42,565 bases of DNA from an uncultured Rhodospirillales bacterium (GTDB taxonomy: Bacteria; Pseudomonadota; Alphaproteobacteria; Azospirillales; Azospirillaceae), in NCBI GenBank assembly GCA_903931735.1, contig CAIZDL010000010.1, forward strand, positions 1 through 42,565, given 5' to 3'. A program made the position numbers and the translations under genes. Shown here piece after piece: positions 23,067 through 42,360 of this stretch. Every line of letters starts with the position of its first letter. Position 1 is the stretch's first letter. The notes below the pieces were generated by a model. The model saw only the letters and a program-made list of their open reading frames with translations, ran no database searches and was not told the DNA's origin.

Positions 23067-23070
23067 CCGG

Positions 23071-23158
23071 GCTCACCTGGGGTGCTGTCCTGCTTCGGCG
23101 TGGTGCGGCTGAGATCACACCCATTGAACCTGTCCGGGTAATGCCGGCGAAGGGAGTT
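23071..23158 (+). ncRNA. TPP riboswitch (THI element)
   Basis: The conserved THI core is present: CTGGGGTGC at the 5' side, then GGCTGAGATCACACCC (pyrimidine-sensing arm), TTGAACCTGTCCGG and GTAATGCCGGCGAAGGGAG (pyrophosphate arm). It ends eight bases before the thiO start, so the AGGGAG tail of the aptamer probably doubles as the ribosome binding site. TPP binding would then block translation of thiO directly. No separate terminator hairpin is visible between aptamer and start codon. Confidence 0.95.
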
Positions 23159-23165
23159 ACGAAAA

Positions 23166-24332
23166 ATGGTTGTTGCTCAGCCTGTCACCATAAAGGGAGA
23201 TTGCCCGAGTGTCGCCGTGATCGGGGGCGGCGCTATTGGGCTCGGCATCGCCTGGAGCCTTGCCCGCGCTGGTTGCGCGGTAACGGTGTTTGATCGCAGT
23301 GATGCCGGGCATTCGGCGAGCTGGGCTGCGGGCGGCATGTTGGCCGCAGGCGTGGAGACCGAACCGGGGGAGGAGTTGCTGTGGCAACTCGCCTCGCGCA
23401 GCCAACATCTGTGGCCGGATTTTCGCTATGCCCTCCAAGCCGATAGCGGCCGCGATATCGGTTATCGTGACGAAGGCACCATGGTGGTGGCGCTCACCCG
23501 TGACGATCTTGAGCAATTGCGCTTCAATTATGAGTTTCAACGCAGCCTGGGTATCGAGCTGGAATGGCTTTCCAGCATCGAGGCGCGGCGTCGGGAGCCC
23601 TATCTTAACACCGGGACCGCAGGCGCGTATTTCTGCAAAAACGACCATCAAGTGGATAATCGCGCGGTGGTCGAGGCGCTGAAGCGGGCGTTGGTGAAGG
23701 CCGGTGGGGTCTTGCGCGAACATGCCGAGGCGGCGGTGGAGATGGCCGGAGGCCGGGCGGTTGGCGTACGGGTTGGCGACGAAGTGCTTAAAGCCGACAT
23801 TGTGGTGGTGGCTGCCGGCGCATGGTCGCGCGGTGTTGAGGGATTGCCCGAGGAGGTCCGGCCGCCGGTCCGGCCGGTGCGGGGACAGTTGCTTTATTTG
23901 CGTATGAACCCGGCGGAACCGCTGGTGCGGCACGTTGTGTGGGCGCCCAAGGCTTACATTATTCCACGGCGCGATGGCCGGCTGCTGATTGGCGCCACCA
24001 CCGAGGAGCGGGGCTTTGATACCAAGCCGACCGCCGGGGGCGTTTTTAGTTTATTGGAAGGGTGCTGGCGCGCTTTCCCGGGGATCGAGGAACTGGTACT
24101 CGACGAAATCGTGGTTGGTTTCCGCCCCGGCAGCCGCGATGACGCGCCGATTTTGGGGCCAACCTCCGTGGAAGGGTTGGTGATGGCCACCGGGCATCAT
24201 CGTAATGGCATCTTGCTTTTACCCGTTACGGTTGAGGCAATTAGCCGCTACATCCTGAAGGGCAGGGTGCTGCCCGAGATTGAGGCCTATCGTCCCGATC
24301 GTTTCCGCAAGGTGACGGGAGGCAAATCATGA
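23166..24332 (+). CDS. thiO: Glycine oxidase ThiO
   Basis: The 388-residue FAD enzyme begins with a dinucleotide-binding fold (VAVIGGGAIGLGIAWSLARA) and is a DAO-family oxidase. It converts glycine to iminoglycine (dehydroglycine) for thiazole formation. Conserved parts include SASWAAGGMLAAGVE, GQLLYLR, YIIPRRDGRLLIGATTEE and the FAD-contacting ATGHHRNGILLLP near the C-terminus. The start is eight bases after the TPP aptamer; the end overlaps thiS by four bases. Confidence 0.94.
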   Translation: MVVAQPVTIKGDCPSVAVIGGGAIGLGIAWSLARAGCAVTVFDRSDAGHSASWAAGGMLAAGVETEPGEELLWQLASRSQHLWPDFRYALQADSGRDIGYRDEGTMVVALTRDDLEQLRFNYEFQRSLGIELEWLSSIEARRREPYLNTGTAGAYFCKNDHQVDNRAVVEALKRALVKAGGVLREHAEAAVEMAGGRAVGVRVGDEVLKADIVVVAAGAWSRGVEGLPEEVRPPVRPVRGQLLYLRMNPAEPLVRHVVWAPKAYIIPRRDGRLLIGATTEERGFDTKPTAGGVFSLLEGCWRAFPGIEELVLDEIVVGFRPGSRDDAPILGPTSVEGLVMATGHHRNGILLLPVTVEAISRYILKGRVLPEIEAYRPDRFRKVTGGKS

Positions 24333-41139: not shown

Positions 41140-41696
41140 AAGCCTAAGGTTGTCACAACCGAACTAAGATATTTGAGCATTTTCAATGGGTTATTTTTGG
41201 GCTTAGCCTGTCATCATTATACAAGCCCGTATACAAGGCTCAAGGAGGCTCAACTCTTTGATCTCAGGAGACGATTAGTCAGTGGCATTTTAGAACAAAA
41301 CAGAAACATAATTTTAGAGCCTACTGGACAAATTTTGTAGAAAATTCTGGTTACGGTGGAACTGCTTAACACTACGGCCGTTCGTATCGTTTTGAGAAGT
41401 GGCCGGCGTAAACGGGCACCCGCAGTATGTTAGTGTGAGCCTCGTCGCATTGTCTCAGAGTGGACGTCGGGCTGTAAACTCCCAGGGCGGATCACAAGGG
41501 TGCTGGCGGCAAAAAATAGTTGCCGTTTCTGGCGTTGATCAACCGACTCGGGACCGATAATTCATTTTACGATGCTCTCGATTGACCGTGTCAGTGTAAG
41601 AGGGCGGCCTGGGGCTCGTCGGGGCAGGTGTTTTCTTTGATGCGAGTCCCCCTAATTATCCAGGCTTATTTATCTCTAAATTTTTGGGTTCCCCCT
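41130..41696. other. Gene-poor, AT-richer segment of unknown origin
   Basis: No supported gene is seen. One 70-residue frame (41128-41340, containing YLSIFNGLFLGLACHHYTSP) has no ribosome binding site, overlaps the tRNA terminator and matches nothing I know. Composition to 41340 is clearly AT-richer than the rest of the window. Around 41389-41415 the sequence AGAAGTGGCCGGCGTAAACG looks like a scrap of an insertion-sequence end, but I cannot assign it. Confidence 0.45.
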
Positions 41697-41725
41697 CTTG
41701 ATGTTCGATGTCTCGTCCCCAATGT
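41697..41725 (+). promoter_or_regulatory. Sigma-32-like heat-shock promoter of hsp20
   Basis: CTTGATG (41697-41703), a 13-base spacer and CCCCAATGT (41717-41725) resemble the RpoH consensus CTTGAAA-N11-16-CCCCATNT with one inserted A in the -10 part. Transcription would start near 41732, giving a leader of about 105 bases before hsp20. Confidence 0.5.
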
Positions 41726-41732
41726 AAGGGAC

Positions 41733-41838
41733 GTCAGAGGACAGGGTGGCTCTGATAATGCAGAACTAAGTCGTGGTCTGTCGGCATGTCAATAATAGTC
41801 GGCCGCGGCGCTGTTGATCGCTCAATGGAGGATCATAT
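41733..41838 (+). promoter_or_regulatory. ROSE-like RNA thermometer in the hsp20 leader
   Basis: The leader ends in a hairpin that buries the ribosome binding site: GATC (41816-41819), bulged G (41820), CTC (41821-41823), loop AATG, GAG (41828-41830), GATC (41831-41834). The UCGCU it contains fits the UYGCU motif with bulged G that defines ROSE thermometers of alphaproteobacterial small heat-shock genes. A first hairpin GTCAGAG / CTCTGAT lies at 41733-41756. The start codon is three bases beyond the stem. Confidence 0.6.
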
Positions 41839-42304
41839 GAATACCTTCGACCTGTCACCACTGTTTCGTTCTACTGTCGGTTTTGACATCCTGAGCCGCA
41901 CTCTTGATGCTGCGCTTGCTCAAACTGAGGATGGTTATCCTCCGTATAATATTGAGAAGACAGGCCAGGATACCTACAGGATTTCCTTGGCTGTGGCCGG
42001 CTTCAAGATTGGTGACCTCGATATTGTAACTCACGAAGGTGTGTTGGCTGTTCGAGGCAGGATTAAGGGTGAGGATGAAAAGACGGTTTACCTCTATCGC
42101 GGGATTGCTGGACGTTCCTTCGAGCGCCGGTTCCAGTTGGCCGACTACGTCGAGGTCAATGGCGCACGGCTGAAAAGCGGCCTCCTTGAGGTCGATTTGG
42201 TGCGTAGGGTTCCCGAGGCACTGAAGGCCCGTCGGATAGAAATCTCCTGTTCACCCGCAGCCGATTCTGCTGTCGAACAGGCATCGATCAGTAAGGCCGC
42301 GTAG
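41837..42304 (+). CDS. Small heat-shock protein, Hsp20/IbpA family
   Basis: A 155-residue alpha-crystallin-type chaperone from the ATG at 41837, preceded by GGAGG; a longer frame from 41786 would swallow the leader. The N-terminus FDLSPLFRSTVGFDILSRTL and DAALAQTEDGYPPYNIEKTG is the IbpA/HspA class A pattern. The crystallin domain has YRISLAVAGFKIGDLDIVTH, YLYRGIAGRSFERRFQLADY and LKSGLLEVDL, and the tail keeps the I-x-I motif (RRIEIS). It binds unfolding proteins and would be induced by heat. Confidence 0.95.
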   Translation: MNTFDLSPLFRSTVGFDILSRTLDAALAQTEDGYPPYNIEKTGQDTYRISLAVAGFKIGDLDIVTHEGVLAVRGRIKGEDEKTVYLYRGIAGRSFERRFQLADYVEVNGARLKSGLLEVDLVRRVPEALKARRIEISCSPAADSAVEQASISKAA

Positions 42305-42316
42305 GCCTTGAGTGTT

Positions 42317-42360
42317 CGGCAGTTGGCGGCTGGTGGGTATTGGCTAGCCGCCGACTGTCG
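42317..42360 (+). terminator. Hairpin terminator after hsp20
   Basis: A 15-bp stem with two G-T pairs, CGGCAGTTGGCGGCT / AGCCGCCGACTGTCG, encloses a 14-base loop and is followed by TTGTGGTTGTT. It begins 13 bases after the hsp20 stop. Confidence 0.75.

Follow-up and report, generated by a model that had tools for sequence, protein, structure and literature searches.

Whether the small heat shock protein gene at the end of this locus responds to temperature twice, through a heat shock promoter and through an RNA thermometer that covers its ribosome binding site, is the question considered here. The window, i.e. the whole stretch of DNA analysed (42,565 nucleotides), is contig C10 of an Azospirillaceae genome of 3.48 Mb in 291 contigs. 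An earlier note on it had described an hsp20 gene preceded by an RpoH-like promoter and a ROSE-like leader hairpin. The gene call was borne out, as the protein matches Pfam PF00011 with E = 2.4e-15 and is of the IbpA type, combining an alpha-crystallin domain with an IbpA-like N-terminus. Against the NCBIfam IbpA model it reached 5.6e-47 and 159 bits, which is under the curated equivalog cut-off of 212 bits. The hairpin had been placed correctly, while the start codon had to be shifted by one base to 41837-41839. The features of the region, all on the plus strand, are the following.

41695 to 41723, plus strand: RpoH (sigma-32)-like promoter with CTTG at 41697-41700 and CCCCAAT at 41717-41723, a matrix match.
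41730 to 41836, plus strand: 5' untranslated leader, its start point predicted from the promoter.
41733 to 41756, plus strand: possible hairpin I, GUCAGAG...CUCUGAU, seen in the MFE structure when the leader is folded at 37 or 45 degrees, missing at 25, and gone in folds starting one base later.
41770 to 41809, plus strand: possible hairpin II, in the centroid of one fold and in the MFE structure of whole-leader folds, not in the MFE structure of the former fold.
41815 to 41835, plus strand: ROSE-type hairpin with the anti-Shine-Dalgarno sequence UCGCU at 41818-41822, the bulged G at 41820 and the loop AAUG at 41824-41827.
41827 to 41832, plus strand: Shine-Dalgarno sequence GGAGGA, with 41828-41832 paired in the hairpin and 41827 in its loop.
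41837 to 42304, plus strand: gene of the ibpA-type small heat shock protein, 155 amino acids, the last gene of the window.
42317 to 42360, plus strand: intrinsic-terminator-like stem of 18 pairs 3' of ibpA, a chance-level pattern (one found, 1.6 expected in shuffles).

Elsewhere in the window, at 23068-23172 on the plus strand, a TPP riboswitch was reported with a score barely over the gathering score.

The structure suggested by RNAfold for 41815-41835 is UGAUC.CUC(AAUG)GAGGAUCA with G41820 bulged. UGAUC pairs with GAUCA and CUC with GAG, and G41820 is left unpaired between the two helices (UGAUC-(G)-CUC/GAG-GAUCA). All but one of the six bases of GGAGGA are paired. The Shine-Dalgarno sequence is bound to the U(U/C)GCU element in the 3'-most hairpin of the leader, and a bulged G lies opposite the ribosome binding site, which is the arrangement claimed by the earlier note and characteristic of ROSE elements. 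The folding energy is unremarkable (z = -0.18; 82 of 200 shuffled sequences fold equally well or better). The full signature is made up of T[CT]GCT, a loop of 3-11 bases, AGG[AG], at least three closing pairs, the first pair on the loop side and a start codon close by. With both strands counted, the window has one such site, as compared to an average of 0.06 per dinucleotide-shuffled window (six of 100 shuffles contained one).

For a comparison with homologues, 134 IbpA leaders were assembled including that of the window, 30 + 24 from its own genome and others and 80 from named genome contigs; some genomes occur in both leader sets, and 113 of the hairpins are distinct. The T[CT]GCT..AGG[AG] motif with its unpaired G was found in 128 of the 134, among them leaders of named Azospirillum, Skermanella and Oleisolibacter strains, and was missing from L002, L003, L049, L094, L136 and L140, where L049 had been dropped before counting and was scored as a miss. 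Outside this count are diverged paralogues in which the match begins near residue 13, and also two full-length rows, G007:C24 and G009:C42, both of which are matched by the covariance model R1 described below.

With the last AGG[AG] after the motif taken as the pairing register in all rows, the four pairs adjoining the motif are formed in 106, 93, 84 and 73 of the 113 distinct hairpins. The first pair on the loop side is present in 104 of 112, and values as high as these did not occur in any of 5000 shuffles. The fifth and sixth outer pairs gave a weak signal or none, the observed values being reached by 53 and 4866 of 5000 shuffles. As AGGAGGA holds two registers, the alternative one based on the first AGG[AG] is the weaker, with the four outer pairs formed in 71, 91, 59 and 60 of 114 and the fourth inside the shuffle range. 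From the 80 named leaders, 51 that carry the motif were selected and aligned with MAFFT. In this alignment 89.4% of the cells pair and 42 double changes were counted, as compared to 16.9 in shuffles; when the 3' arm was shifted by one to three columns, the paired share fell to 41-61%. Double changes of any kind affect 6 pairs, which is not above chance (5.2 in shuffles, the observed value being reached by 153 of 500). All these shuffle controls leave the relatedness among the leaders in place. Loss of the pairing in homologous leaders, which the earlier note had named as grounds for giving up the idea, is hence not what was found: the pairing is conserved and the stem covaries.

The closest relatives depart from this picture. 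Neither of the two nearest orthologues, L002 and L003 (72 and 67% identical), carries the UYGCU motif; in L002 the Shine-Dalgarno sequence is partly in a stem with a bulge on the opposite strand, and in L003 it is folded weakly. In a tree of 19 IbpA proteins the window protein joined these two (100/100), and a long branch separated it from L004 and L032, which are IbpA copies of the same genus with the usual leader. As the window copy groups with L002 and L003, it is these two sisters which appear to have lost the motif. In genome G004 the second ibpA copy, L032, keeps it. L001 has just three closing pairs beyond the motif.

A search with the Rfam ROSE models had been proposed as a check. No ROSE match was obtained at the site, whether in the window, in a 601-base segment around it at E up to 10 or with RF00435 over the own genome, and the hairpin stays below the RF00435 gathering score. 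Nor did Rfam give a ROSE match at E <= 1 when 20 motif-bearing loci were searched. When RF00435 was applied with stricter filters to a sample of 289 genomes of the class, 18 genomes gave matches at E <= 0.01, one of them over the cut-off; 16 of the 18 matches have the UYGCU..AGG[AG] core, and 14 have IbpA as the longest downstream frame. At E <= 1 it matched in two of four named genomes, one match being at the L111 leader and none over the cut-off. RF00435 is specific but insensitive. As one of 289 class genomes passes and none of the 20 motif loci match, failure with this model is not defining, and the statement that an element has no Rfam match says little about ROSE elements. Treating the Rfam miss as a refutation was rejected, RF00435 missing the other 19 motif loci as well.

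A model built from the homologues themselves did recognise the hairpin. R1, constructed from the 51 motif-bearing leaders with the window excluded, matched 41800-41839 with 21.3 bits and E = 0.00029, the next best place in the window scoring 13.4 bits. The covariance test thus failed with Rfam and succeeded with R1. Over the own genome the same match has E = 0.023. R1 as a stand-alone proof at genome scale was rejected, as two other places there score similarly (21.9 and 21.0 bits).

RpoH promoters consist of a CTTG-type -35 and a CCCCAT/CYTATNT-type -10 element. The strict pattern CTTG-N16-19-C[CT][TC]A[TA]nT occurs upstream in 51 of 131 distinct leaders, with 0.3 in mononucleotide shuffles. 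The window site lies outside this pattern, as do 80 of the 131 distinct leaders, the best matrix fit being at spacing 16. A weight matrix trained on 51 orthologous leaders, again with the window excluded, ranked CTCTTGATG-N-CCCCAAT at 41695-41723 first on both strands of the window with 13.6 bits, the next independent site having 12.4. The site is at -140 from the start codon; among the 51 leaders that fit the pattern, 48 have their match between -103 and -156. As a sequence match, the RpoH-like promoter reported in the earlier note therefore stands, with -35 and -10 elements of the right types at a matching distance by the matrix and not by the strict pattern. If this promoter is right, the leader would be about 107 nt long. 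The two upstream hairpins are present in some folds and absent in others. ROSE leaders have two to four hairpins and 60-120 nt or more (PMC13104619).

Taken together, the leader is read as a ROSE-type RNA thermometer, with a probability of roughly 0.87. At low temperature the last leader hairpin would pair the Shine-Dalgarno sequence with UCGCU, and the bulged G41820 would keep this pairing labile. Upon warming the hairpin would open, the 30S subunit could bind and IbpA would be made. Heat would also raise RpoH activity and with it transcription from the CTTG promoter. The double heat control proposed in the earlier note is in this way supported as an inference from an RpoH-like promoter followed by a ROSE-type hairpin. 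The temperature response itself is deduced by analogy with characterised ROSE elements that have the same core.

Among the alternatives an ordinary stem over the ribosome binding site, which lowers basal translation and leaves heat control to the RpoH promoter alone, fares best and is nevertheless unlikely. It would fit the loss of the motif in the two closest orthologues and the predicted stability of the hairpin, for which ViennaRNA gave no opening from 20 to 50 degrees (Shine-Dalgarno sequence unpaired at 0.17 to 0.18); when the whole leader was folded at 37 and 45 degrees, the hairpin lost its outermost pair. The predicted melting is taken as uninformative because the predicted changes in 11 other leaders were small as well (0.14 at most) and because ViennaRNA is not known to take account of the non-standard pairs found in ROSE elements. 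A plain stem needs no bulge, yet the unpaired G is kept in the 128 motif-bearing leaders while the arms change in step, and the stem would be 3.8 kcal/mol more stable at 37 degrees without it.

A second brake could be provided by IbpA binding to its own leader. In E. coli IbpA the residues Y34, R93, R97 and K98 are needed for leader binding (PMC10474464); by position number in that paper, they correspond to Y34, R93, R97 and R98 here, so that self-binding is possible. The authors of that paper have suggested such autoregulation for alphaproteobacteria. That the leader is mainly an IbpA-binding site, on which temperature acts via the pool of free IbpA and not by melting, is quite improbable, as it leaves the conserved Shine-Dalgarno pairing and the bulge unexplained. 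A chance hairpin, to which the shuffle-level energy would point, is very unlikely, since a signature expected 0.06 times in the window sits at the gene class best known for ROSE and is conserved and covarying in homologues.

The window hairpin is thus very likely an ordinary ROSE thermometer on ibpA. With the ROSE elements of alphaproteobacteria (rhizobia, Caulobacter; RF00435) it shares UYGCU/AGGA, the bulged G, the position in the last leader hairpin, the IbpA-type small heat shock protein and the RpoH-like promoter; it differs in not being recognised by RF00435 and perhaps in its upstream hairpins, which may not be homologous. The short ROSE-like elements of Pseudomonas ibpA have the same core, a sigma-32 promoter and the same gene, with hairpin energies of -4.1 to -7.6 kcal/mol as compared to -8.1 in the window, and with a leader shorter than that of the window, which has room for two more hairpins (PMC3669281). 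The expectation that a ROSE element in this background extends a range best known from rhizobia did not hold, because ROSE already has a known distribution in both alpha- and gammaproteobacteria, with over 40 elements of this type reported in 2005 (cited in PMC4166951), and the motif is present in almost all leaders compared here.

When R1 was run over 82 genomes of the family, matches were found in 77 at E <= 0.05. Beyond the ibpA leaders already known, 72 R1 places picked among the matches listed were examined, and these comprised 39 starts of an RpoH paralogue, 12 ibpA genes, one M48 protease and 20 others. A ROSE-type hairpin is predicted at the start of the RpoH paralogue in at least 39 places and at least 37 of 45 genomes of genus g11, which is taken for Azospirillum.

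L295, L297, L299, L308-L314 (including L312), L316, L319, L322, L329 and L330: RpoH-paralogue hairpins, genus g11.
L334-L340, L342-L353 and L404-L408: RpoH-paralogue hairpins, genus g11, continued.

All three of the paralogue proteins scanned exceed the curated RpoH cut-off (TIGR02392). The stem reads GUCAUAUC-(G)-CUU/GAG-GAUGUGAC. When 12 of these 39 leaders are aligned, no change is seen in the arms GUCAUAUCGCUU and GAGGAUGUGAC, with loop and flanks varying; there is therefore no covariation within rpoH, and the case is built on the invariance of the arms, on the bulge and on the resemblance to ibpA. Among 50 rpoH leaders from 59 genomes, UYGCU..AGG[AG] is present at the start in six, i.e. 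in one paralogue in each of the five g11 genomes of this set and in one paralogue of the window congener G001, the latter with an R1 score of 15.4 bits and E = 1.9. A looser script pattern flagged two further leaders, both without UYGCU, and on reading no motif was seen in the other 44 of the 50, including both copies of the window's genome. In genomes G348 and G362 the rpoH paralogue lies head to head with an ibpA paralogue, and the hairpin is found on both.

The candidate at Azospirillum rpoH resembles the E. coli rpoH thermometer in lying on the gene of a heat shock sigma factor and in its predicted translational heat control. The E. coli thermometer (PMC4166951) is a large structure reaching into the coding region, in contrast to the compact ROSE hairpin predicted before the start codon in Azospirillum. 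ROSE-type hairpins on genes other than those of small heat shock proteins, as proposed here, are also known from Pseudomonas aeruginosa, where rhlA has a ROSE and lasI a ROSE-like element; there the genes belong to quorum sensing and rhamnolipid synthesis, here to a heat shock regulator (PMC13104619). A literature search covering titles and abstract openings among the matches listed, with subscription papers thinly covered, yielded no ROSE element at rpoH, and absence from print is not claimed.

A further group of R1 matches leads to a protein family termed P0002.

G000:C118:1166-1693 (L152, L194), own genome: P0002 gene with an R1 match at its start, one of the three places there near 21-22 bits.

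This protein has no Pfam match, and its family gave no convincing match in Pfam, NCBIfam or PDB, with nothing significant in a PDB profile search; one member matched the NAD(P)H-hydrate dehydratase model with E = 0.0018. Homologues occur in 55 of the 82 genomes and in seven of 13 genera (loci L195-L205 and L211-L263, start codons chosen by rule). The ROSE motif stands before the in-frame start in 14 of 58 homologues, 14 of 16 outside g11 and none of 42 within it; in G336 and in the second copy of G358, both g11, an R1 hairpin lies further upstream of the homologue and not before its in-frame start. R1 reports 12 of the 14 with 17.8 to 29.5 bits, most above the score of the window, and gives no report at E <= 1 for L197 and L204, where the motif is present. 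The homologue follows an ibpA paralogue with a ROSE hairpin of its own in G017 and G025, and in G017 a DnaJ-like gene comes next, so that the homologue is flanked by ibpA on one side and dnaJ-like on the other. Upstream of the homologue in G016 there is a chaperonin gene. RpoH-like promoter scores above the 95% mononucleotide-shuffle level were obtained for eight of the 14 ROSE-bearing and 42 of the 44 other homologues.

Several further R1 places were seen. An M48 peptidase gene stands behind a ROSE-type hairpin at L304 (G007:C7, R1 27.7 bits), and another at L418 (G001:C55, 17180-17200) has a weak partial match of 17.1 bits and E = 0.6; both peptidases are HtpX-like but under the NCBIfam cut-offs. 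In the own genome, L154 (G000:C192:19051-19095) matches with 21.0 bits at what is, by eye, a CheA-like start, and this may be chance. L159 (G011:C337:41352-41394) reaches 31.8 bits before a hydrophobic protein of 111 amino acids without Pfam or NCBIfam match. A hairpin tgcatgttgct..ggagg precedes similar sequence in eight g11 genomes (L315, L318, L323, L324, L341, L409, L412, L415). A long reading frame is not consistently present behind this hairpin, which may belong to a small ORF or be an orphan thermometer.

The extensions to rpoH and P0002 are predictions from sequence. On this footing it appears fairly probable that in Azospirillaceae ROSE elements serve as a translational switch of a wider heat shock regulon, comprising an RpoH paralogue, the P0002 family and M48/HtpX-like proteases, and that this arose independently of the solution found at E. 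coli rpoH. For the P0002 family the ROSE-type hairpin would be the first functional lead. If the hairpin at rpoH works, one kind of RNA switch would open both the heat shock sigma factor and its target, forming a feed-forward heat circuit which, if true, is directly testable in the harmless and genetically tractable genus Azospirillum.
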